A stretch of 22,084 nucleotides of DNA from a virus: IMG/VR virus record IMGVR_UViG_3300049460_000193, positions 1-22,084 of that record. One strand, given 5' to 3'. This document shows, piece after piece, positions 3,492 to 21,046 of this stretch. Below the pieces are notes generated by a model that worked only from the letters and a program-made list of their open reading frames with translations, had not been told where the DNA came from and made no database searches. The position numbers and the translations under genes are program-made. Position 1 is the stretch's first letter. Each line of letters begins with the position of its first letter.

Positions 3492-3934
3492 TCAAACTCC
3501 GCGCCCTGACCACCTACCTGATCGAACGCCGCCTGGTCGAGGCTGAACAGCTCGACAGCTGGACCGACCAGGTGAATCTGGAACTGATCTGGAAGCCCGA
3601 CGTCGGCGGCATGCGCATGGGTGACATGCGCTACAGCGCCACGATCGCCCTGGAGCGTTTCGCCGATCACCCGGGGCGTCTGATGGCGTTGGTTGGCAGT
3701 TGGCTCGAGAGCAACGACCAGGACCGCGACGATCTGCCAGCGGCGAAGTTCGACATCACCATGCTCGACAACGACCTGGCCGACGTGGACATCACCCTCG
3801 AGTTCATCGAGCCCCAGTACCTGGCCGAGGATTCCACCGGCGAGATCCTGGCGTTCGGTAAGACCTGGTCGTTCGTGCCGTTTGACCTCTGGGTTGCCGA
3901 GCACGGCGAGGTGTCCAGCCATGGCCGGTCGTAG
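3488..3934 (+). CDS. R: Tail completion protein, gpR-like
   Basis: A 148-residue member of the P2 gpR tail completion family, needed to finish the head-proximal end of the contractile tail. It starts at a GTG that overlaps the gpL stop (GTGA) and reads VIKLRALTTYLIERRLVEAE. The central part, with RYSATIALERFADHP, LVGSWLESNDQDR and FDITMLDNDLADVDITLEFIE, has the family layout of strands for an acidic tail terminator. The reading frame is open further upstream inside gpL, but overlap, family length (P2: 155) and the residues support 3488. It overlaps gpS by 14 bases. Confidence 0.85.
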   Translation: MIKLRALTTYLIERRLVEAEQLDSWTDQVNLELIWKPDVGGMRMGDMRYSATIALERFADHPGRLMALVGSWLESNDQDRDDLPAAKFDITMLDNDLADVDITLEFIEPQYLAEDSTGEILAFGKTWSFVPFDLWVAEHGEVSSHGRS

Positions 3935-4604
3935 CACCTTCGAGCTCGATGCTCGGGGCTACCTGGGCGTGCGCGAGCAACTGGCCTTGCTGAGCCTGCC
4001 GCCGCAGCTGCGACGCCGTCTGCTGAACAACGTGACCAAGCGCGTGCGGACGATGAGCCGCAAGCGCGTGCGCGATCAGCAGAACCTGGACGGTACGCCG
4101 TTCGAGGAACGCAAAGGCTCGGGCAAAGGCAAAAAGAAGATGGAAGCGGGGCTGGCCAAGCTGATGTTGGTCACCCGCGTCAGCGCCGATGAAGCCGAAC
4201 TGGGCTGGCGTAACGCCCTGACCAGTTGGGTCGCGGCTCAGCAACATAACGGCGTCAGCGAGCGCCGCACGGCTGCCCAGATGAAGCGCTGGAACAACGT
4301 TCCCGCCGGCCTGGCCGCCACTGACAAGCAGGCAAAACGGCTGCGCCGCCTGGGCTTCAAGGTCCGCCAGGAAGGCAAAAAGACCCTGACCCGGCCGTCG
4401 GTGGCCTGGATTCAAGAACACGTGAACTACGCCAAAGCGGGGCTGCTGATCCGCATTTTGGACGACGAAAAAACCGAGAGTAGCGGCGCGCAGAGCTGGG
4501 AAATCACCTTGCCGAAGCGCCAGTTCATCGGCGTCAGCACCGAACGAGACACTGGCTTGCTGCTGAACCAGGTGCTCCAACAAATCCTTAATTCTCCCCG
4601 CTAG
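3921..4604 (+). CDS. S: Phage virion morphogenesis / tail completion protein, gpS-like
   Basis: A 227-residue basic protein of the gpS family (phage virion morphogenesis), acting at tail completion with gpR. The N-terminal part has RRRLLNNVTKRVRTMSRKRVRDQQNLDGTPFEER, the conserved core in which short phage proteins carry a run of Arg/Lys and then DG-x-P-(F/W). It is clearly longer than P2 gpS (150 residues). The extra C-terminal part includes KTLTRPSVAWIQEHVNYAKAGLLIRIL and KRQFIGVSTERD; the RQFIGVS-like ending is common in the broader family. ATG 3921 (MAGRSTFEL) is chosen although the frame stays open from 3693 within gpR. Confidence 0.85.
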   Translation: MAGRSTFELDARGYLGVREQLALLSLPPQLRRRLLNNVTKRVRTMSRKRVRDQQNLDGTPFEERKGSGKGKKKMEAGLAKLMLVTRVSADEAELGWRNALTSWVAAQQHNGVSERRTAAQMKRWNNVPAGLAATDKQAKRLRRLGFKVRQEGKKTLTRPSVAWIQEHVNYAKAGLLIRILDDEKTESSGAQSWEITLPKRQFIGVSTERDTGLLLNQVLQQILNSPR

Positions 4605-4615
4605 CGAGGCACTGC

Positions 4616-5731
4616 ATGGCACTCGGCAAAGTCAGCGTAAACAATCTCAATCTGGGCCAAGGTGCCGTGACTGAGATCGAACGCTATTTCCTTTTCATCG
4701 GCACTGGCGCGAAAAACGTCGGCCAGCTGCTCGCCCTGAACACCGACAGCGACCTTGACAGCGCCCTGGGCATTCCCGCGAGTGATCTGAAGACCCAGAT
4801 CACCGCTGCACGCCTCAACGGTGGCGATCGCTGGGCGTGCCTGGCCGCTCCAATCAATGCAGACGGCGAATGGTCCGAAGCCCTGGAAAAGGCCCAGCAA
4901 CAAGGCTTTTCCGTCGAGTCAGTAGTGATCACCACACCGGTAACCGCCGGTGCTCAACTGTCGGCCATGCATGACGCGGCCGTGGCACTGAACAACACCT
5001 ACGGCCGCCGCGCTTTTGTCATAGCGGCGAGTGCCGGTATCACTTCCCAGCAGACCTGGGCGGAATACCTGCTCGAGCAGAAGGCAATCACCACCGGCCT
5101 GGCTGCGCCGCGTGTCCTGGCTGTGCCGCAATTGCACGGCAATGACCTGGGCGTCTTGGCCGGTCGCTTGGCCAACGCCGCAATGAGCATTGCTGACAGT
5201 CCGATGCGTGTGGCGTCCGGTGCGCTGCTGGGCTTAGGCCCCGTTCCGACCGACAAAGAAAACGTGCCATTGCCGTCCGCGATCCGCGCCGAACTGGATA
5301 CCGCGCGCTTCTCCGTGTCGCAGACCTACCCCGATTACCCGGGCGTGTTCTGGGGCGACGGCAACATGCTCGACGCGCCGGCGAGCGACTTCCAGGTAGT
5401 CGAGTACCTGCGCCTGGCGGATAAGGCTGCCCGCCAGGTTCGTCCGCTATTGATCCGTCGTGTCGGCGATCGCCGCCTGAACAACACGCCCAACAGCATG
5501 GCCGCCGCGATCAGCGCGTTCATGAGGCCACTTCGCCAGATGGCCAAGTCCACCACCTTCGCCGGCCAGGTGTCCCCGGGTGAGATCGAATCGCCCCAGG
5601 ACGGCGACATCGTCCTGGTGTGGCACAGCAAAACCAAGGTCGAGATCTACATCAAGATCCGCCCGCTCAACTGCCCGAAAGACCTGACGGCCAACATCGC
5701 CCTCGACCTTTCTGACGACAACCAGGAGTAG
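4616..5731 (+). CDS. Contractile tail sheath protein (DUF2586-like)
   Basis: A 371-residue protein that I recognise as the DUF2586 type, the sheath of HP1/K139-like and many Pseudomonas prophage tails. It occupies the position of P2 FI but is not obviously FI-like in sequence. The N-terminus MALGKVSVNNLNLGQGAVTEIE fits a sheath handshake strand. The C-terminal third, from FMRPLRQM to VWHSKTKVEIYIKIRPLNCPKDLTANIALD, matches the conserved sheath C-terminal domain that carries the polymer contacts. A GAGG Shine-Dalgarno lies 7-8 bases upstream. It is followed five bases later by the tube gene, as expected for a sheath/tube pair. Confidence 0.85.
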   Translation: MALGKVSVNNLNLGQGAVTEIERYFLFIGTGAKNVGQLLALNTDSDLDSALGIPASDLKTQITAARLNGGDRWACLAAPINADGEWSEALEKAQQQGFSVESVVITTPVTAGAQLSAMHDAAVALNNTYGRRAFVIAASAGITSQQTWAEYLLEQKAITTGLAAPRVLAVPQLHGNDLGVLAGRLANAAMSIADSPMRVASGALLGLGPVPTDKENVPLPSAIRAELDTARFSVSQTYPDYPGVFWGDGNMLDAPASDFQVVEYLRLADKAARQVRPLLIRRVGDRRLNNTPNSMAAAISAFMRPLRQMAKSTTFAGQVSPGEIESPQDGDIVLVWHSKTKVEIYIKIRPLNCPKDLTANIALDLSDDNQE

Positions 5732-5736
5732 CCCCC

Positions 5737-6189
5737 ATGACCGCACGTATTGGCGGCAAGAACTTCGACGTGAACCTGGGCGACCTGCAGGTACACGTCG
5801 ACAACATCACCCTCGACATCACCGACAACACCGCCGTGGCGCAGAGCAAAGGCGTGCCCAACGGGCACGTCGACGGCGACGTCTCGGCCAGCGGCGAGAT
5901 GGAATTCGACACCAGCAACTTCAACCTGCTGATTGAGTCCGCCCGATCGGCCGGGAGCTTTCGCAAGCTGGACACCTTCGACGTGGTGTTCTTCGCGGCT
6001 GCAGGCGATGAGGAGCTGCGCGTCGAAGCCTTCGGCTGCAAGTTGAAGGTCTCCAGTCTGCTGGCCATCGATCCCAAGGGCGGTGAGAAGTCCAAGCACA
6101 AGGTGCCGTTCGACGTCACCAGTCCGGACTTCATCCGCATCAACGGCGTGCCGTACCTGGACGCTACCGAGATCGAGGGCCTGCGCTGA
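5737..6189 (+). CDS. Tail tube protein (DUF2597-like)
   Basis: A 150-residue beta-rich protein of the DUF2597 type found directly after DUF2586 sheaths. By position and family it is the inner tail tube through which DNA passes. The layout is strand-rich: FDVNLGDLQVHVDNITLDITDN, then a GHVDGDVSASGEMEFDTSNFNLL stretch, and the ending KVPFDVTSPDFIRINGVPYLD, which resembles tube subunits. A clear AGGAG Shine-Dalgarno (5725-5729) overlaps the end of the sheath gene. Its TGA shares one base with the next ATG (TGATG). Confidence 0.85.
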   Translation: MTARIGGKNFDVNLGDLQVHVDNITLDITDNTAVAQSKGVPNGHVDGDVSASGEMEFDTSNFNLLIESARSAGSFRKLDTFDVVFFAAAGDEELRVEAFGCKLKVSSLLAIDPKGGEKSKHKVPFDVTSPDFIRINGVPYLDATEIEGLR

Positions 6190-6401
6190 TGGTGTGCCCG
6201 TTCGACCGTGCCCAGGCGCTGGAGCAACGCCAGCGTGACCAGGCGATCGCGGCCCAGCTCGCCCAGGTGCGCCCGATCGGGCCAAGCCGGACCCACTGCC
6301 TGGACTGTGAAAACCCGATTCCCGAGAAGCGCCGTGCCCTGGGCGGAAAAGTCCGCTGCACGCCCTGCGAGTCTCTTTCCGAGAAAGGACAACGCCGATG
6401 A
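6189..6401 (+). CDS. TraR/DksA-type C4 zinc finger protein
   Basis: A 70-residue protein with four cysteines, C37, C40, C57 and C60, spaced C-x2-C-x16-C-x2-C within HCLDCENPIPEKRRAL and VRCTPCES. This is the DksA/TraR zinc finger, preceded by an alpha-helical, Gln/Arg-rich N-terminus. TraR-type proteins bind the RNA polymerase secondary channel and mimic DksA plus ppGpp. A helix of about 28 residues is available here for that, with D6 and D17 as the only acidic tip-like residues visible. Small members are common in the lysis/tail region of P2-like prophages, where their targets are unknown. The gene is coupled to both neighbours (TGATG and ATGA). Confidence 0.85.
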   Translation: MVCPFDRAQALEQRQRDQAIAAQLAQVRPIGPSRTHCLDCENPIPEKRRALGGKVRCTPCESLSEKGQRR

Positions 6402-6790
6402 GCCTCATCACCTGGCCGCACTTCGCCGCGGCTGAATTGCGCTGCAAATGCGGCAAATGCAACAGCACCGGCGCCGAGATGGATCCGGCGTTTATGGCCG
6501 AGCTCGTGACCCTGCGTCAGCAGTTTGGCCGGCCGATGGCGCTGAGTAGCGCCTACCGCTGCCCGAAGCACCCGGTGGAAGTGAACAAACCTGCACCAGG
6601 TGAGCACTGCACCGGCCTGGCCGTTGACGTGCGCTGCAGGGGCGAAGACGCCGTGCAGATCCTGCGCCTGGCGATGAACTTGAAGTTCACCCGCTTCGGC
6701 ATCAGCCAGCGCGGCAATGCCCGTTTCCTACACCTGGGCATGGCGCCGGCCGGTGGCCGATTCCCCAGCCCTGCGATCTGGAGCTACTGA
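6398..6790 (+). CDS. M15-family D-Ala-D-Ala carboxypeptidase-like endolysin
   Basis: A 130-residue peptidase M15A-like protein, probably the endolysin that cuts peptidoglycan stem peptides at lysis. Candidate zinc ligands are H70 (GEHCTGLAVDV), D77 and H112 (FLHLGM), with the substrate-binding SAYR motif at residues 51-54. This is the full arrangement expected for the family. An N-terminal cysteine cluster (C16, C18, C21) is seen in related phage proteins. There is no signal peptide, so export would require a holin or similar. ATGA overlap with the zinc finger gene shows coupling. No muramidase of the P2 gpK type is present. Confidence 0.88.
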   Translation: MSLITWPHFAAAELRCKCGKCNSTGAEMDPAFMAELVTLRQQFGRPMALSSAYRCPKHPVEVNKPAPGEHCTGLAVDVRCRGEDAVQILRLAMNLKFTRFGISQRGNARFLHLGMAPAGGRFPSPAIWSY

Positions 6791-7006
6791 ATGTCCCGAC
6801 TGTTGATTGTTGCCGTGTTCACCGTCGTCGCCCTGGTCGGCTGCGCGCTCAGCGAAACGCACAACGTTGTGGCGCGCAGTGCCTCAACGTTGGTGGCGTT
6901 GTACTGCAAAGCCCCGGAAACGGGCCGCGTGTTGCTGCGTGCGCAGATCGCCAATGACACCGCACCGAACAAGATCCGCGTGGAGTGCCCCGCCGATGCC
7001 CTTTAA
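6791..7006 (+). CDS. Small predicted lipoprotein in the lysis cassette
   Basis: A 71-residue protein with a lipoprotein signal: R3, a hydrophobic core (residues 4-16) and the lipobox L-V-G-C with C18. The mature part is about 54 residues and has two further cysteines (in LYCKAP and RVECPA) that might form a disulphide in the periplasm. The gene begins directly after the endolysin stop and overlaps the DUF1353 gene by 11 bases. By place and topology it could be an outer-membrane spanin subunit, but it lacks the proline-rich stretch usual in Rz1 proteins. The function is therefore not settled. Confidence 0.7.
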   Translation: MSRLLIVAVFTVVALVGCALSETHNVVARSASTLVALYCKAPETGRVLLRAQIANDTAPNKIRVECPADAL

Positions 7007-7358
7007 AAGCTCGCTGGTCGTGAAGGCGGTGATGGGCACCAAGCAGTGGCAGTTGGTGCGGCCGCTGATGTACCTGACCACTCGCAACCAGTGGGTGACT
7101 GTGCCGCAGTGCTACCGCACCGACCTGGCCAGCGTGCCCCGGCCGGTTTGGTGGCTGATCCCGCGTGACGATGAATGTGCCCGCCGGCCTTCGGTGGTGC
7201 ATGACTTCATTTACACCAACGCCACTGACCGATTCACCAAGGCCGAAGCCGACCAGGTGTTTTACGACGCCCTGCTCGAGGAGGGCATGCCCAAGCCTTT
7301 GGCCTGGCTGATGTACACCGCCGTCCGGATTGGCGGCCGTGGCAACTGGAGCGCATGA
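6996..7358 (+). CDS. DUF1353-like phage protein
   Basis: A 120-residue protein with the two hallmark motifs of DUF1353: TDLASVP (residues 42-48) and VVHDFIY (HD at 69-70). The family is common in tailed phages next to lysis and tail genes. Its role is unproven, but the conserved His-Asp and Thr-Asp residues suggest a small hydrolase or metal site. The start MPFKSSLVV at 6996 lies inside the lipoprotein gene; the longer open frame back to 6807 is a shadow of that gene. It ends one base before the start of the next gene. Confidence 0.8.
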   Translation: MPFKSSLVVKAVMGTKQWQLVRPLMYLTTRNQWVTVPQCYRTDLASVPRPVWWLIPRDDECARRPSVVHDFIYTNATDRFTKAEADQVFYDALLEEGMPKPLAWLMYTAVRIGGRGNWSA

Positions 7359-7359
7359 A

Positions 7360-7617
7360 ATGGAGCTTTCATCCATGACCGTGAGCGTACTGCTGATGCT
7401 GACCGAACTGGTCCTGACCGGTGTCGCGGGCTTTCAGGTGTACCTCTTCAAACAGATCAGCGCGGCCCGCCGTGAACACCTCGAGTTTCGCATCGAGGTC
7501 GCTGAGCGATACGTCCGGGCCGAGCACATCGATAAGGCCATGGAAAAGCTGGAAGACCGGCTGGAACAGCGGCTGCAGCACCTTTTTAACCAACCACCAC
7601 AACGGAAAAGATCATGA
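7360..7617 (+). CDS. Small membrane protein with C-terminal coiled coil (lysis cassette)
   Basis: An 85-residue protein with one transmembrane segment (about residues 8-30) followed by a highly charged helix. The helix reads EFRIEVAERYVRAEHIDKAMEKLEDRLEQRL and has coiled-coil periodicity. Similar short proteins sit just before the tail chaperone in many P2/HP1-like prophages. The topology fits either an inner-membrane spanin or a small holin-like accessory protein; no family function is known to me. ATG 7360 follows the DUF1353 stop by one base, and ATG 7375 (MTVSVLL) is a possible alternative. ATGA overlap couples it to the chaperone. Confidence 0.7.
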   Translation: MELSSMTVSVLLMLTELVLTGVAGFQVYLFKQISAARREHLEFRIEVAERYVRAEHIDKAMEKLEDRLEQRLQHLFNQPPQRKRS

Positions 7618-7901
7618 GCGAAACACGCGATATCACCCTGGAAGTCGGCGACAAAGAATTCACTTTCACCCTGACGCCCCAGGACGTGACCAAGTACTTC
7701 AACAGCCTGACCCAGAACAACAAGGTGGCCCCCGCCAACAACCTGCTGGTCAACACCGTCAAGCAGGAAGAGCGCGCCACGCTGAAGACGCTGCTGGGCA
7801 ACCCGGTGATGGTGATGCAACTCGCCGGTGCGCTGGTTGAGGAGTACGGCCCGGACGTTGAAGTCATCGTAAAAAAGCCCTCGAGCACGCTGAGCGCCTG
7901 A
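7614..7901 (+). CDS. Tail assembly chaperone, short (zero-frame) product
   Basis: A 95-residue protein resembling the putative phage tail assembly chaperone family seen before tape measure genes. It starts MSETRDITLEVGDKEFTFTLTPQDVTKYFNSL and has a helical second half. Such chaperones coat the tape measure protein before tail tube polymerisation. The zero frame ends at TGA 7899-7901, a few codons after the slippery site at 7871. It is equivalent in place to P2 gpE and lambda gpG. A GGAAAAG Shine-Dalgarno lies upstream of the ATG, which overlaps the preceding stop. Confidence 0.85.
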   Translation: MSETRDITLEVGDKEFTFTLTPQDVTKYFNSLTQNNKVAPANNLLVNTVKQEERATLKTLLGNPVMVMQLAGALVEEYGPDVEVIVKKPSSTLSA

Positions 7902-8065
7902 AAGAGGACGGGCTAGGCCAATTGTTGGCCCTGTCCGGTCGCTGGTTTCCTGGTGAGGCGCCCACACCCGAGGTGATGGGCACCGCCAAGTGGCTGGAGG
8001 ACGAATATTGGCACCGCATGGGGATCGCCGTTGCCAACGGCATCGCCCAGGCACTGAACGGATAA
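7614..8065 (+). CDS. Tail assembly chaperone, -1 frameshift product (E+E'-like)
   Basis: If ribosomes slip back one base at A AAA AAG (7871-7877), translation continues from GCC at 7877 in the -1 frame to TAA at 8063-8065. This yields 150 residues: 88 from the zero frame and 62 new. The extension begins ALEHAERLKEDGLGQLLALSG and goes on with RWFPGE and AKWLEDEYWHRMG, ending ALNG. It has no start codon of its own near its beginning and fills the otherwise empty gap before the tape measure gene (8072). This is the G/GT arrangement of lambda and E/E' of P2; the slip itself is inferred from sequence. Confidence 0.8.
7871..7877 (+). promoter_or_regulatory. Programmed -1 ribosomal frameshift site
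   Basis: The heptamer A AAA AAG lies in the correct phase, since the zero frame reads GTA AAA AAG. It is the same heptamer as the efficient E. coli dnaX signal. Downstream, AGCCC (7876-7880) can pair with GGGCT (7910-7914), enclosing a small CGC-TGA-GCG hairpin (7888-7896); this could act as a stimulator. Confidence 0.78.
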
Positions 8066-8071
8066 ACACGC

Positions 8072-10057
8072 ATGGCTGACCGCGCCGCCCGCCTGGCCTT
8101 CATTTTGAGTCTGACTGACAAGGTCACCGCGCCCCTGGGCAAGGTGAAAATGGGTTTTTCCGACCTTGCCGAGAAGAGCGAAAAGAACATCAAGACGATG
8201 GGCATGGGGCTGGGCGGCATGATCGGCGCCGGTGCGGCCATCACCGAATCGTTGGCCCCGGCCTTGGAGATGAATCGCGCCCTGGGCGAGGTCCGATCGC
8301 TGGGGGTGGTTGAGGACGCGCTGAACGCGCTGAATCGAAAATCCCTGGAGTTCTCGGTGGCCTACGGCGAAAACGCCCGGGATTTTGTCGCGTCGGCGTA
8401 CAGCATCGAAGGCGCGATCAAGGGGCTCACCGGCGACCAGTTGGCCACATTCACCAACACCAGCAACCTGCTGGCCAAGGCGACCAAGGGCGACGCGGAA
8501 ACCATGGGCGCCTACGTGGGCACCATGTACAACCTGTTCAAGGGCCAGGCCGACGCCATGGGCAAAGCCGAGTGGGTGGAAAAACTCGGCGGCCAGACGG
8601 CGCTGGCGGTGAAGCTGTTCCGCACCGACGGCGCCCAACTCAAGGACGCGTTCAAGGAAGTTGGCTCCATCGCCACCACCTTTGGCGTTGACCTGGCCGA
8701 GCAGTTCGCGGTGATCGGCTCGCTCAGCAGCACCATGGAAGGCGGGGACGCCGGCGGGATCTATAAGGCGTTTTTCGAAAACATCGGCGCCGCCTCGGAA
8801 AAGCTGGGGATGAAGTTCACCGGTCAGAACGGCAAGTTGCTGCCGATGATGGACATCCTCAGCAAGCTCGAGGGCAAGTTCGGCGATCTGAACAGCGCTG
8901 ACGCCGGCGCCAAGCTGATCGACGCCTTTGGCGGTGAAGGCGCCCGTGTCATCACCGCGCTGACCAAGGACACCGACCGCCTGCGCAATGGCATGGATCA
9001 ACTGGGCAAGGTTCGCGGCCTGGAGAACGCCGAGAACATGGCCAAGGCCATGGTGGACCCGTGGCAGCAGTTCGCTGCCGCTGTCGAAGCCTTGCGCGTG
9101 GTATTTGGCCAGGTGCTGATCCCGATCCTGACACCACTGATGAACAAGCTGGTGGCAATCGGCGCCACGCTGACCCGCTGGACGAACTTGTTCCCGAACA
9201 TCGCCCGCGTGATCGGCATCGTGACGTTGACCGTCTTCGGGATCATCTTCGCGATGTCCGCGCTGACCATGGTGATCGGCATCAGCCGCATGACCTGGCT
9301 CGGGCTGGTGACGGTCTGGAAAGTGGTGCAGCTGCTGAACCTGCGCACCATCGCCGGCTTTGTGCTGCAGAAGCTGGCCATCCTGGCTTACCTGTCCATC
9401 TTGACGCTGTTCGGTGCGGCCATGCTGGTCGTGCGCGGCGTCATGTTGGCCTGGCAGGCGGCTATCTGGCTGGTCAACGTGGCCCTGACCGCCAACCCGA
9501 TCGGGGTCATCGTGATGGGCATCGCCGCACTGGTCGCCATCGTCGCGGTCGCCGTCTACTACTGGGACGAATGGACGGCGGCCCTGATGAACAGCGAGGC
9601 GTTCAAGTGGGTCAGCGGGCAATTCAAGGTGCTGTCCGACTGGTTCAACTCCATGGGCGGCTGGTCGAGCATGGCCAAGGGCGCCTGGGACAGCATCGTC
9701 AGCGTCTTCTACAAGGCCATCAATGGCCTGATCGAGATGCTCAACAGCATCCCCGGCGTGAACATCGAAGCGCGGTTTGGCGGCATGCCGGAAGTACCTG
9801 GTGCTGACGTGGCCATTAATGCGGCGGACACCGCGAGCTCCGCGCAAAAAGCCCAGCAGACCATCAACTCGGCGATTCCGAGCCTGTCCCCATCGCGTGC
9901 CTCGGCCGTGCCCCCAGGTGGCTTGCTGAGCAGCATTCAGAACAACACCAACAGCCAGAGCAAGGGCACCCACGTGGAGAACCTGACCATTCAGAACAAC
10001 AAGCCAATGACCCCGCTGGAGATGGAAAACATGATGAGCATGGCGGTCGGCGGATGA
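8072..10057 (+). CDS. Phage tail tape measure protein
   Basis: A 661-residue tape measure protein of the TP901 type, setting tail length and later helping DNA cross the inner membrane. The N-terminal part (LSLTDKVTAPLGKVKMGFSDLA, then the conserved region around residues 70-320 with FVASAYSIEGAIKGL and FGVDLAEQFAVIGSLS) is typical. Long hydrophobic helices occupy roughly residues 345-500. The C-terminus is Ser/Gln/Asn-rich. At 661 residues the tail should be fairly short. The gene follows the chaperone frames by six bases, and its ATGA overlaps the next gene. A 686-codon open frame on the opposite strand is a codon-bias shadow. Confidence 0.92.
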   Translation: MADRAARLAFILSLTDKVTAPLGKVKMGFSDLAEKSEKNIKTMGMGLGGMIGAGAAITESLAPALEMNRALGEVRSLGVVEDALNALNRKSLEFSVAYGENARDFVASAYSIEGAIKGLTGDQLATFTNTSNLLAKATKGDAETMGAYVGTMYNLFKGQADAMGKAEWVEKLGGQTALAVKLFRTDGAQLKDAFKEVGSIATTFGVDLAEQFAVIGSLSSTMEGGDAGGIYKAFFENIGAASEKLGMKFTGQNGKLLPMMDILSKLEGKFGDLNSADAGAKLIDAFGGEGARVITALTKDTDRLRNGMDQLGKVRGLENAENMAKAMVDPWQQFAAAVEALRVVFGQVLIPILTPLMNKLVAIGATLTRWTNLFPNIARVIGIVTLTVFGIIFAMSALTMVIGISRMTWLGLVTVWKVVQLLNLRTIAGFVLQKLAILAYLSILTLFGAAMLVVRGVMLAWQAAIWLVNVALTANPIGVIVMGIAALVAIVAVAVYYWDEWTAALMNSEAFKWVSGQFKVLSDWFNSMGGWSSMAKGAWDSIVSVFYKAINGLIEMLNSIPGVNIEARFGGMPEVPGADVAINAADTASSAQKAQQTINSAIPSLSPSRASAVPPGGLLSSIQNNTNSQSKGTHVENLTIQNNKPMTPLEMENMMSMAVGG

Positions 10058-10371
10058 GCGAATACATCGATTTGCTGATTGTTGACAACGACCTGGTGCT
10101 CGATCCGTCGCGGCAACCGGTGCTCATTGATGACCGGGCCAGCATCGCCCAGGACATCGCGCACATGATCCGCGACAGCGGCCTGCTGGTGACCCTGGTC
10201 GCCGAGCGCAACAGCCTGAAACAGCGTGACTGCATTCAGCAGCTGGAGCTGTTGGTGGAGGCGGACGAACGTCTGGTACCGGGAACAGCACTGATCGCTC
10301 AGATCGAGCCCGGGCAGTACCTGGTGACGGCCACAACTATGAAATTCGGCGCGATCGAGGTGACGGTGTGA
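10054..10371 (+). CDS. Baseplate wedge protein, gpW/gp25-like position (DUF2590-like)
   Basis: A 105-residue protein that I recognise as the DUF2590 type. It lies between tape measure and J, where P2-like and Mu-like phages carry gpW/gp25-like wedge proteins. The pattern DLLIVDNDLVLD, SIAQDIAHMIRDSGLL and a final strand FGAIEVTV is compatible with a small gp25-like fold. Its stop is embedded in the GTGA start of J, as expected for stoichiometric baseplate parts. The specific wedge role is inferred from position. Confidence 0.75.
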   Translation: MSEYIDLLIVDNDLVLDPSRQPVLIDDRASIAQDIAHMIRDSGLLVTLVAERNSLKQRDCIQQLELLVEADERLVPGTALIAQIEPGQYLVTATTMKFGAIEVTV

Positions 10372-11543
10372 GCGACGTAGATTTCAAACAGGCCCTGACG
10401 GACGCCGGCATTCCGACCACCGAAGAAGGTCTGCGCCAGGCGTGGGAAGCCGAGGTGGTCGCCCAGGGCAGCAAGCTGAGCAACACCAGCACCTGGTCAC
10501 CGTTCTGGCGTGTGGTCACCGCGTTGGTGACCAAGCCGGTGATGTGGATTCTGGACTTCTTCATCGCCACGGTGCTGCCGAACTTCTTCGTCAAAACCGC
10601 CGAGGATGCCTGGCTGGATATGCTGGCGTGGGGCGTGAACGTTGAGCGCAAGGGGGCGACCAAGGCCAAGGGGTTCTTGCTGTTCACCCGTGTCGCCGCC
10701 GGCGGCGCCCTCGAGGTCGCGGCGGGCACGGTGGTGCAGTCGGCCGCGATCAATGGCCATGTTTACCAGATGGTGACGACGGCAGTCGGAACGTTCACCG
10801 ATGGAGTGATGCAGCTGCTGGTCCCGGTCGAAGCGGTGGACGTGGGCAGCGGCTTCAATCTGGCGCCGGGTTACTACGCCGTACTGCCGGTGCCGATTCC
10901 AGGCATTGCCCAGGTGGCCAACGCTGATGGCTGGTTGACCACGCCCGGGGCGGATAAGGAACCCAACGACGAGCTGCGTCTGCGCGTGCGCAATCAGTTC
11001 TCGGCGGTCAACCAATGGCACACCGACGCGGTGTATCGGGCGATGATTTCCGCCTTCCCAGGTGTGCGTCCGGACGGCGTGTATTTCGAACACGGCGCCC
11101 CACGCGGGCCAGGCAGTGCCAACGCCTTTGTGCTGTTCGATGCGGACGTGCCGGCGGCGACTTACCTGGAGCAGATCAACGCTCACATTCGCGATCTGGG
11201 CAACCATGGTCACGGCGACGACCTGCTGGTGATGGTGATGCCCGAAACCCTGCACGCACTGAGCGTGACGCTCTGGCCGCGCTCAACCTTGACCGCTGCT
11301 CAGCGCCAAACCTTGCTGGACGAAACCACGCTGTTCATCCGAGCGGCCTTTCGCGAGAGCACGACCAGCGACTACCAGCCGACGCTGACTTTCCCGCAGT
11401 CGCGGTTTTCATTCAGCCGCCTGGGCGAAGAACTCCACCAGCAGTTCCCGGGCATCGAGTCGCTGCACTTTGAGAATGACGACATCCTTTCGGAACTCAA
11501 CATCCCCCGGATTCAGAGTCTGCAGGTGCTGCCCCATGATTAA
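10368..11543 (+). CDS. J: Baseplate J-like (gp47-like) wedge protein
   Basis: A 391-residue baseplate J family protein that forms the wedge arms linking tube end, sheath and fibres. Family features are the N-terminal region with FIATVLPNFFVKTAEDAWLDMLAWGVNVERK, AAGGALEVAAGTVV with its Gly/Ala strands, PGADKEPNDELRLRVRNQF, and VYFEHGAPRGPGSANAFVLFD. The start is a GTG overlapping the preceding stop. Its own TAA overlaps the ATG of gene I (ATGATTAA). Confidence 0.9.
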   Translation: MSDVDFKQALTDAGIPTTEEGLRQAWEAEVVAQGSKLSNTSTWSPFWRVVTALVTKPVMWILDFFIATVLPNFFVKTAEDAWLDMLAWGVNVERKGATKAKGFLLFTRVAAGGALEVAAGTVVQSAAINGHVYQMVTTAVGTFTDGVMQLLVPVEAVDVGSGFNLAPGYYAVLPVPIPGIAQVANADGWLTTPGADKEPNDELRLRVRNQFSAVNQWHTDAVYRAMISAFPGVRPDGVYFEHGAPRGPGSANAFVLFDADVPAATYLEQINAHIRDLGNHGHGDDLLVMVMPETLHALSVTLWPRSTLTAAQRQTLLDETTLFIRAAFRESTTSDYQPTLTFPQSRFSFSRLGEELHQQFPGIESLHFENDDILSELNIPRIQSLQVLPHD

Positions 11544-17755: not shown

Positions 17756-18595
17756 TCAGTATTTTCTGAAAAGAGAAAGGAAGCGGTTACTTCCTTCAAG
17801 TCCGGTCCCAGACAAGAGTCGGATCAAGCTTTGACATTGCTCATCACTTAGTAAGCTCTTAACTCCATATCTGGACTCGAACTCATCTTTAACTTTTTGT
17901 ATCAAGTACAATGGGGTCGCGATGCAGCAATGTTGTTCCAAAAACAGGTAGGAACCGGTGTCGTCACTCAAATAGACATTAATCCAATTGAGAATTCCTC
18001 CTTCATCTTTGATTGAGGGTTCAAAGAAGTCAAATTCGGGCTCTGAAAATGTTGCATGCCGATAGTTAACTGCCTCTCGAGCATCCATCATCCAATCGAA
18101 AATTGATTCTCCAGCAACAGTGTTGCTTAGGAGGAGCTCTCCATTGCTCATCTCTTTTTCAAATATATAAATCGTTGTTTTGTGGTCGCCTTTCGTTGTT
18201 TCGCCTTTGTGTTTTTGCCCCGTTCGCTTGACTGGGGTAGAGCCTGCTTCATTCCTTAGCGTGTAGATTCCGTTGCACTTTACAATTCCGTAACCCCGGG
18301 CGGCGAAAAGCGCTCTAAGTAAATAGAATACTGAATAGTAAAGCTTGATAATTGCCCATGATTGATATCCCTTAGACGCTGCAGTTAGCGCGTCGACGAA
18401 TGTGTGGGCACCCTTATAGAATACGTCTGCTCCGTCTTCAATCAGCGCGTTTCTCATGGCATTCTGCATGTCCTCGGTTAGAATATGCTTTTCAAATGCT
18501 GATTTATAGTCGGAAAGTTTTTCCGGATTGCTACAGCCAATCCAACTCTCCATTAACTCCTGTAGCTTAAATCTTTTAGAATTTGTATTCGTCAT
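17756..18595 (-). CDS. Accessory protein with HEPN-like features, partner of the DGQHR protein
   Basis: A 279-residue protein of unknown family on the minus strand. Residues 76-105 (YQSWAIIKLYYSVFYLLRALFAARGYGIVK) have the helix pattern with paired Tyr and a following G-Y-G turn common in HEPN-type helical domains. R173 to H180 (REAVNYRH) fits the R-x6-H spacing of HEPN ribonuclease sites. Both are visual resemblances, not a proven match. Residues 115-142 are basic and may bind nucleic acid. No membrane segment or signal peptide is seen. Its start overlaps the end of the DGQHR gene by 20 bases, so the two are translated from one message. It is convergent with the spike gene and AT-richer than the phage genes. 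Confidence 0.75.
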   Translation of the reverse strand: MTNTNSKRFKLQELMESWIGCSNPEKLSDYKSAFEKHILTEDMQNAMRNALIEDGADVFYKGAHTFVDALTAASKGYQSWAIIKLYYSVFYLLRALFAARGYGIVKCNGIYTLRNEAGSTPVKRTGQKHKGETTKGDHKTTIYIFEKEMSNGELLLSNTVAGESIFDWMMDAREAVNYRHATFSEPEFDFFEPSIKDEGGILNWINVYLSDDTGSYLFLEQHCCIATPLYLIQKVKDEFESRYGVKSLLSDEQCQSLIRLLSGTGLEGSNRFLSLFRKY

Positions 18596-19655
18596 GGCTG
18601 GGCAACGAGTTCAATAGGTTACTTTCGAGAAGATCTTTAATGACCTTGCGAGCGGTTTTACCGTCTTTCCCTTTCAGGTCGTCCCACGTCACTAGTCCTT
18701 CTCGATCAAGCCCAATAAAACTTTTCATCGTGGGAATTGAAAAGGAGCCTTTTTCCGCGCATCTTTTAATCAGCGACTCAATAAAGAAATCCATTGCGCC
18801 ATTAAATCCAGCTGCTTTTAAAAATGGGTTCTTGGACGTTGAACCCCACGCTTTGGCTTCAGAGTAATAATCTCGAATCGCTTGAAAGTAGTTTGAGATT
18901 GAGGCTTTCTGTTTGTCGAAATCTCGTAGCCTGTATATGTAGAACGTTCCTGTTTTTGGATGCAGATGGTCTTTCAGTGCTGAAACGAAAGTGGAAAGCT
19001 CTATGTTGCCTTGCCCACGAGCCGCACCAGGGAATTTAATTAGATTATATAACGGTGAGGATGGATCTTCATTCAGATCCCGTGCCAGGTCGGTAGATCT
19101 ATTGACGCCATGCTCGGCATCGTCTATCACTTCTCCAAACAGATCAAAAACAAGGCTTTTGGGAACAGGTTTCTGTTCCGTGTTAATGTTTAAGAAAATT
19201 TGAGCTGCCTCGGGAGTTGATAGTCCCACGCACATTGTTACGAGAAGTTCCTGCTCTCCGATTTCTTCATTGATTTCGATAGCCGCCTCCAGCCCAGCAA
19301 TGCGGTGCTGGCCATCAATGACCTGAGCCGCATGCGGAACAATTGGGACAGTTATCGTTCCATCTTTGAACTTAGGGGTGAAGTTTTTGTCAGTCCAATT
19401 GATTATGAATGAGTTGAAAAATGTGTTTCCATCAAGTACGTACGAACGAATTCCATTAATTCGACGAACGCTCAATGGGCGCTGTACGGCCCCCGCTTCA
19501 ATATCTTGTCCGCGTACAGCTACGTAATGAAGTGCGATGATATCCTTGACTTTTACTGCAAATGTGTAAGCGGGTATGTTTCCGAACTTTGTGCTCAAAC
19601 AAGCTGCGCTGTGTACGGGATGGTCCAGTTTTTTTCTGATAATTCTCTTTGCCAT
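18576..19655 (-). CDS. DGQHR-domain (DndB-like) protein
   Basis: A 359-residue protein with the diagnostic DGQHR motif at residues 114-118 (AAQVIDGQHRIAGLEAA), followed by FLNINTEQKPVPKSLVFDLFG near residue 154. This is the shared core of DndB-like proteins and resembles ParB-type folds. Family members include DndB, a regulator in DNA phosphorothioation, and the sensor domain of SspE. Stand-alone copies are frequent in defence islands and prophages. No modification genes (dndA, dndC-E) lie nearby. ATG 19655 is chosen because it begins MAKRIIRKK with an AGGGA Shine-Dalgarno upstream on the minus strand. The open frame to 19886 reads Arg-rich nonsense and is rejected. The C-terminal part (KNPFLKAAGFNGAMDFFIESLI) is helical. 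Confidence 0.88.
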   Translation of the reverse strand: MAKRIIRKKLDHPVHSAACLSTKFGNIPAYTFAVKVKDIIALHYVAVRGQDIEAGAVQRPLSVRRINGIRSYVLDGNTFFNSFIINWTDKNFTPKFKDGTITVPIVPHAAQVIDGQHRIAGLEAAIEINEEIGEQELLVTMCVGLSTPEAAQIFLNINTEQKPVPKSLVFDLFGEVIDDAEHGVNRSTDLARDLNEDPSSPLYNLIKFPGAARGQGNIELSTFVSALKDHLHPKTGTFYIYRLRDFDKQKASISNYFQAIRDYYSEAKAWGSTSKNPFLKAAGFNGAMDFFIESLIKRCAEKGSFSIPTMKSFIGLDREGLVTWDDLKGKDGKTARKVIKDLLESNLLNSLPSHDEYKF

Positions 19656-20340
19656 AATGTTTCGTCCCTGCTTAGTTAATTGCTTGCGAGCTAGGTACAC
19701 GCTCCGCTCGTTAAAGATCGGCCAAATGTAGCATTGAAATTGCGAAGGACATATCTCAACGAGAGCGTTTTTTTGGAAGGTAGCAAGTGACGTGCGATTC
19801 CAGGTGCACCAATCTTCATTCGCATGTCCTGGCCTAGGATTCCTTCTCCGCGAGGCAGATCGTCGCGTGCTGCTCACCATTACCACCGTTTTGTCACCAT
19901 TTCCGTGATAACTGAAACGAAGCGTTCGCTAAGTTAACGCGCCCATCTGGCAGATCGTGACTACTCCTTCAGCTCGCTCAGCGCAGCTCATGCCCTCACC
20001 GACCAGATCAAAAATGACGCCATCATATTTGTCGTTGCTTGTTTGGTACCACCTCCTCGCGAGAGAGGACGTCAACAAAAAGCATTTCACGAAGAAAAAA
20101 TCTGTCAAAAAAGCACTTATCCCCCTCCCGCCGACGGGCTTTGTGTCCCTTTTTTGTGCAAACGAGGGTGGTAGTGCAAACGGTGGCTCCGCCCAAGCCC
20201 GCCGCGGGGTTTATGGGCTGTTTCGCAATTGCACGGAGCGCAAGGTTTTGCAAAGAAGTGCAGTGGCCTTGCACATCTGTATGGGACGGCGGCGATTTGG
20301 TCAGGGGAGTGAGACGCCCGGTTTACAGGGGTTACGGTTG

Positions 20341-20855: not shown

Positions 20856-21023
20856 TTTTTCCCGTGGCTCAACATAAAACGCGGAAAACGCCTGCAACGA
20901 TCCTATTCTGCAACCTGGTGCGTTTTATCTCTGGGACTACGCTGGGACAGATTCCGCGCACGCTGACAGGCTGCAGCCCTTGTAAACCGGGGGGAGAGGT
21001 TCGAAAAATCGCTCACGGGTAGT

Positions 21024-21046
21024 TTCGAATCTCTCCTTCACCGCCA
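21024..21046 (+). other. Right attachment site (attR): 3' fragment of a tRNA-Ser gene
   Basis: The sequence consists of a T-loop TTCGAAT (21024-21030), a T-stem 3' strand CTCTC (21031-21035), an acceptor 3' strand CTTCACC (21036-21042), a discriminator G and CCA (21044-21046). This is exactly the end of a tRNA-Ser whose acceptor would start GGTGAAG. The expected T-stem 5' strand GAGAG and the rest of the tRNA are not present upstream, so this is a fragment, as left by integrase-mediated insertion into the 3' end of a tRNA gene. The complete tRNA should lie at the other end of the prophage. The tRNA terminator follows. Confidence 0.75.

Follow-up and report, generated by a model that had tools for sequence, protein, structure and literature searches.

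The 22,084-bp virus record analysed here (the window) carries on its minus strand, at 17756-19655, two overlapping genes that form a real, dedicated module whose pairing recurs far beyond chance: the first encodes a DGQHR-domain protein and the second a partner with a predicted HEPN fold. On balance, we read the pair as a compact prophage anti-phage module of the superinfection-exclusion or abortive-infection type, in which a DGQHR switch would control a HEPN effector of the AF0298/AbiV class.

Locus organization and composition

The DGQHR-domain protein (P0002, 359 aa) is encoded at 18576..19655 (minus strand, ATG at 19655) and the partner (P0001, 279 aa) at 17756..18595 (minus strand). The first-pass annotation of this DNA had reported an overlap of 20 bases, and the 3' end of the DGQHR gene and the 5' end of the partner gene indeed share exactly 20 nt (18576..18595, minus strand, ATGACGAATACAAATTCTAA), which makes translational coupling likely. 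The pair was also correctly described as running opposite to the tail block and as AT-richer: both genes are oriented against the head and tail genes of the window, and their GC content is 43.8%, compared with 62.1% for the structural block, in which every 1900-bp window has at least 60.5%, the lowest value found. The proposed slot between the last tail gene and attR stands on its tail side, the pair lying 30 bp past the baseplate gene (phrog_4011), but on the other side attR is putative, and ARAGORN detected no complete tRNA in the window. The segment at 21022-21046 (GTTTCGAATCTCTCCTTCACCGCCA), similar to a tRNA gene 3' end, is a possible attR mark.

The slot beside the baseplate gene is identical in Pseudomonas sp. 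PICF141 (L003), whose partner protein is 99% identical to that of the window. Comparison of the two copies reveals 22 synonymous and 4 non-synonymous differences in the DGQHR gene and 23 and 3, respectively, in the partner gene, so both are under purifying selection. The leader upstream of the operon (19656..20150, minus strand) is collinear with that of PICF141 and highly similar to it. Past the prophage end in PICF141 (L003:3281-5963) lie genes for a trypsin-like protease and for a lipoprotein-like product of 410 aa.

The DGQHR protein

Assignment of P0002 to the DGQHR family is upheld by its score against TIGR03187 (117.6 bits, cut-off 58.85), and the DndB model PF14072 matches it at 2e-16. 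The three motifs named for DGQHR domains (PMC4619093), QR (Q58-R59), DGQHR (114-118) and FxxxN (F154-N158), are invariant in 13 members of the group. The best fold matches of the P0002 model are ParB/Noc, Spo0J, sulfiredoxin and SbnI, with weak E-values, and as modelled its N-terminus is a ParB/sulfiredoxin-fold NTP-binding module.

These motifs and the ParB/Srx fold are shared with DndB, DpdB and the rest of the DGQHR family (TIGR03187, PF14072), but P0002 belongs to neither the Dnd nor the Dpd system. It scores far under both equivalog cut-offs (19.6 bits against 328 for DndB, 68.2 against 300 for DpdB), no dnd genes lie beside the first-group pairs and no dpd genes adjoin the pair, and the Dpd DGQHR proteins form a clade of their own, separate from that of the window. 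DndB binds its own promoter and, as an autoregulator, represses the operon it belongs to (PMC4507180), ATP and GTP are ligands of a DndB-like protein (PMC12704722), and in SspE the related DGQQR module links GTP hydrolysis with cleavage of DNA (PMC13251355).

The partner protein and its candidate site

The HEPN-like fold suggested earlier for the partner has held up. Its AlphaFold model is helical and confident (pLDDT 88, pTM 0.89), with helices at 41-74 (H1), 78-99 (H2), 165-178 (H3) and 223-243 (H4). The top Foldseek match in the PDB by probability is 2hsb, the HEPN protein AF0298 of A. fulgidus (probability 0.90, TM-score by target 0.63, E 0.9), the other PDB matches listed having probabilities of at most 0.11, and PF05168 (HEPN) is matched by 12 of the 13 members, all weakly (best E 5e-4), P0001 itself reaching 20.6 bits, below the curated cut-off of 22 bits. 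Because the PF05168 score is sub-cut-off and the Foldseek E-value is 0.9, the assignment is drawn from several agreeing weak signals, and we place moderate confidence in the modelled four-helix bundle of the HEPN type. No HEPN model in Pfam other than PF05168 matched the partner, HEPN_AbiV (PF18728) giving nothing at E<=10; PDB sequence searches returned nothing relevant to either protein of the pair, and a BFVD fold search gave no confident match. Surveys of PF05168 and AbiV proteins among Pseudomonas relatives produced too few sequences for a profile.

The same annotation had proposed R173-x6-H180 as a ribonuclease motif, adding that an absence of conservation of these residues would count against it. 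The string is present and R173 (codon 18077..18079, minus strand), at the end of helix 3, is invariant (13/13), but H180 (codon 18056..18058, minus strand) occurs in only 2 of the 13 members, the window and its 99%-identical copy; across the 13 the column reads H N H V L S S N T I I R M, and position +5 from R173 is an invariant tyrosine (Y178). R-x4-6-H strings appear in 54% of shuffles of the partner sequence, so the R-x6-H string is no more than expected by chance. We therefore reject R173-x6-H180 as the active site: the fold was predicted rightly, and the catalytic histidine wrongly, since the fold matches HEPN and the H180 column is variable. The partner family has no conserved R-x4-6-H of the canonical RNase kind.

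What is conserved instead is a signature of D54, W80, Y86-Y87, F90-Y91, R94, H138, R173-[ED]-x-x-[NHS]-Y178, F183, P186 and H222, with R94, H138, R173, Y178 and H222 invariant; the counterpart of the R173 motif in a sister subfamily (see below) is R-N-x-x-N-Y. In the class of AF0298 (2hsb) and AbiV, the arginine is kept, the motif histidine is lost and a second conserved histidine lies in an insert between helices 2 and 3 (PMC3710099). The partner has the same layout, with R173 kept and H138 (codon 18182..18184, minus strand), present in 13 of 13 first-group members, in the insert between helices 78-99 and 165-178. Residue conservation thus marks R94/H138/R173/Y178/H222 as a candidate non-canonical site, in which H138 is the likely active-site histidine of a putative enzyme. 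With the canonical R-x4-6-H missing, the partner could therefore be non-catalytic.

The partner thus shares with the HEPN-T/AF0298 and AbiV classes (PMC3710099) the fold, similarity to PF05168, an arginine at the end of helix 3, the missing motif histidine and the alternative invariant histidine in the helix 2-3 insert. It differs from them in being larger (248-313 aa), with additional helices at both termini and a beta-hairpin, in lacking a PF18728 match and in always being paired with a DGQHR gene rather than an MNT gene. Compared with the window, the nearest distinct pair shows 51% identity in the partner and 77% in the DGQHR protein, and the most variable region of the partner, outside its short N-terminus, is the C-terminal part. 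Since the faster-diverging protein of the two is the partner, it could equally be the one that carries the infection-sensing surface.

Distribution of the pair

The two genes co-occur well beyond this prophage, as the idea of a two-gene system demanded. Partner- and DGQHR-based searches yielded about 15 further same-clade loci, in each of which the DGQHR gene precedes the partner gene, together with 7 loci of a sister subfamily in a Pf phage, in plasmids of Leptospira, Providencia and Acinetobacter, and in genomes. Searching viral contigs with a partner-alignment profile recovered L010-L019, and a DGQHR-alignment profile recovered L002 and L020-L026; all strong partner-profile matches have a DGQHR gene directly upstream and all same-clade DGQHR-profile matches have the partner downstream. 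The same arrangement is found in genomes of the genus Pseudomonas (L007, L008), and a partner-only search of a phylum sample led to a locus (L029) that a DGQHR gene also adjoins. Spacing in the 13 members is a 14-20 nt overlap or a 1-6 nt gap, except for one locus at -92 whose start is uncertain. The first-group DGQHR proteins form one clade (14 rows, SH-aLRT 99), and the divergence of the two proteins is matched (r 0.89, with 0 of 2000 permutations as high).

A further locus, L028, has the same pairing with its HEPN gene split into two frames. Both there and in L030 (G1056:C66:186561-187377) the HEPN gene lies in two overlapping frames beside an intact DGQHR gene, which is the outcome of a frameshift, a programmed shift or a sequencing error.

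The subfamily to which the window pair belongs is rare, being present in 3 of 399 Pseudomonas genomes, with no member in E. coli genomes, PLSDB or named phages. The single partner sequence of the window, used as a query, found no match in phages, plasmids or viral contigs, so alignment queries were needed there; a single scan of genome contigs returned the 99% copy (L003) as its only match. One hit, L009 (E 6e-4), looks false as a partner, having no adjoining DGQHR gene.

Pairs of the sister type occur in Pf phage PfAC19 (L031), a Leptospira plasmid (L033), Providencia plasmids (L034), an Acinetobacter plasmid beside NotI-type restriction-modification (R-M) genes (L063) and the phylum-sample locus L029. 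A profile comparison links their partners to the first family (95% probability, E 2e-8), and this partner subfamily (B), queried alone, gave no HEPN match in Pfam. Among other DGQHR genes of the Pseudomonas and Pseudomonadota samples, many adjoin dndC or belong to Dpd clusters, two (L047, L078) stand with another HEPN-pattern partner, and one of the second clade (L077) has no partner. We also observed DGQHR proteins with a different, upstream partner at L037:2838-4714, L064:1741-3693, L065:2198-4101 and L066:2024-3861; in the Gram-positive plasmids (L037, L064) and the Dnd locus L065, this upstream partner has transmembrane-like segments. DGQHR genes may pair with several kinds of partner.

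Genomic context of the relatives

The cassette occupies a lambda-like early region, the P2 gpA-gpQ locus, sites beside an integrase (L014, L002), a Pf phage and plasmids, and because these positions differ between elements we regard it as mobile cargo. The earlier suggestion of cargo in a defence context is supported by its neighbours. In L015 it is flanked by the P2 replication gene A (phrog_91) and the portal gene Q (phrog_68), a locus that is an experimentally established anti-phage hotspot holding old and tin (PMC9122126); HsdR and HsdM (type I R-M) are found about 1 kb from the pair in L019; and in L016 a PDC-S31 candidate defence gene is directly upstream, with an AbiD/PD-T4-5 homologue nearby. 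This context of the P2 hotspot, type I and NotI R-M, AbiD and PDC-S31 favours anti-phage defence; against it, many loci sit in prophages with no other defence genes nearby.

In the Acinetobacter plasmid, the sister-type pair (L063, 427-4303) directly follows NotI family R-M genes, and in L032 (3075-5870) a pair directly follows an N6_N4 DNA methylase, its partner being degenerate and too diverged to assign; such pairs perhaps serve as a backup for the R-M system. As annotated, no modification genes are present in the window, and there are none near most other copies.

Two neighbourhoods contain further genes of interest. Around the pair of the L016 provirus (3802-10657) are PDC-S31 (DUF2971), a pentapeptide-repeat protein and the Abi_2/AbiD/PD-T4-5 homologue. 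Upstream of the closest distinct pair, an unannotated 214-aa gene (L002:738-1382) encodes RDKLAHG (R-x4-H); its product, which has no match in Pfam or PADLOC, is possibly a separate HEPN protein.

Proposed function and alternatives

The pair is probably an undescribed anti-phage system: no model in PADLOC (2023 defence database) fits the partner, and we found no open-access paper that treats DGQHR and HEPN together. It is not a new kind of system, since operons joining a HEPN gene to a ParB-fold gene, in some cases along with a DNA methylase, were already listed for the MAE_28990 and Ribo L-PSP-HEPN families (PMC3710099); those families keep R-x4-6-H, whereas the partner of the window matches only PF05168. 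Tha, a HEPN defence of Staphylococcus aureus prophages (PMC11087260), is likewise a prophage-borne HEPN anti-phage effector, as is predicted here, but is described as a single HEPN effector gene accompanied by an antisense inhibitor, and has no DGQHR partner.

A toxin-antitoxin (addiction) module, with the HEPN-like partner as toxin and the DGQHR protein as antitoxin and autorepressor, maintaining the prophage or plasmid and protecting against phages only secondarily, is the alternative we take most seriously, although we think it unlikely. An overlapping two-gene operon on prophages and plasmids would suit it, HEPN toxins are common in such systems (PMC3710099) and DndB represses its own operon (PMC4507180). 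However, at about 280 and 360 aa the proteins are large for type II modules, the first gene has an intact set of NTP-binding motifs rather than a small DNA-binding domain, the leader contains no inverted or operator-like repeat and no promoter scoring above chance, and the neighbours are R-M genes and a defence hotspot. Nor is this a HEPN-MNT toxin-antitoxin pair, as the gene adjoining the partner in all loci is a DGQHR gene and not an MNT nucleotidyltransferase.

We give still less credence to modification-dependent restriction of the GmrSD or SspE kind, in which the DGQHR NTPase would recognise phage DNA, modified or unmodified, and the HEPN-fold subunit would be an RNA- or DNA-binding or structural component and no killer. 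ParB/Srx domains of the DGQHR/DGQQR type act in this way in GmrS and SspE (PMC4619093, PMC13251355), ParB proteins can act as nucleases (PMC10853773), and methylase or R-M genes adjoin L032, L063 and L019. GmrSD and SspE, like our pair, couple a ParB/Srx NTPase module to a nuclease-type module, but here the second module has a HEPN fold instead of HNH and a gene of its own, and no modification system accompanies it in the window or around most copies. Neither protein matched DUF262, nor HNH or any other nuclease domain, so the DUF262 and HNH combination that defines GmrSD type IV restriction is absent. A pair regulating lysogeny or the prophage, made of a transcriptional repressor and an RNA-binding HEPN protein (like MtlR) with no defence role, would fit DndB as a transcriptional regulator (PMC4507180) and the regulators known among HEPN proteins that lack R-x4-6-H (PMC3710099), but is the least probable, as the cassette occupies unrelated positions in unrelated elements, at odds with phage-specific regulation, and the polar residues that are strictly conserved point to a catalytic or ligand site.

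Returning to the anti-phage module, we count in its favour the dedicated pair, the single DGQHR clade, the matched divergence, the HEPN fold signals with the alternative-site layout, the ParB/Srx fold with its three motifs, the neighbourhood context and purifying selection on both genes; against it we count the sub-cut-off PF05168 score, the Foldseek E-value of 0.9, the absent canonical R-x4-6-H, the many loci without defence neighbours, the rarity of the pair and the absence of an identified operator or promoter. The integrity of the module, its predicted folds, invariant residues, mobility and context are computed, whereas a complex of the two proteins, the trigger, RNase activity and protection, and the roles of the DGQHR protein as sensor and the HEPN protein as killer, are inferred. 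More specifically, though tentatively, prophages and plasmids may share a widely spread and hitherto undescribed anti-phage system, an RNA-targeting counterpart of GmrSD and SspE: its HEPN effector, with H138/R173 as a non-canonical active site, would be under the direct control of an NTP switch of the ParB/sulfiredoxin fold.

In such a system, the first gene would provide the nucleotide-binding DGQHR protein and the second, co-translated, the effector of the AF0298/AbiV class, whose putative RNA-cleaving site would combine H138 and R173, with R94, Y178 and H222 assisting, in place of R-x4-6-H. The two proteins would be held in a silent complex in the lysogen. Infection by another phage would shift the DGQHR switch to a different NTP- or DNA-bound state or, alternatively, a phage product would contact the variable C-terminal half of the partner; either trigger would release or activate the HEPN subunit, which would attack RNA and halt the growth of the phage, whether or not the cell is lost.

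Outside DNA phosphorothioate and deazapurine systems, in which their role is a matter of debate, DGQHR proteins are, to our knowledge, hardly known. A DGQHR-HEPN unit that stands alone offers a minimal two-protein setting in which to ask what the DGQHR NTP switch senses. The pair also allows a direct test of the proposal made in 2013 that RNA cleavage by some HEPN proteins relies on an alternative histidine (PMC3710099).
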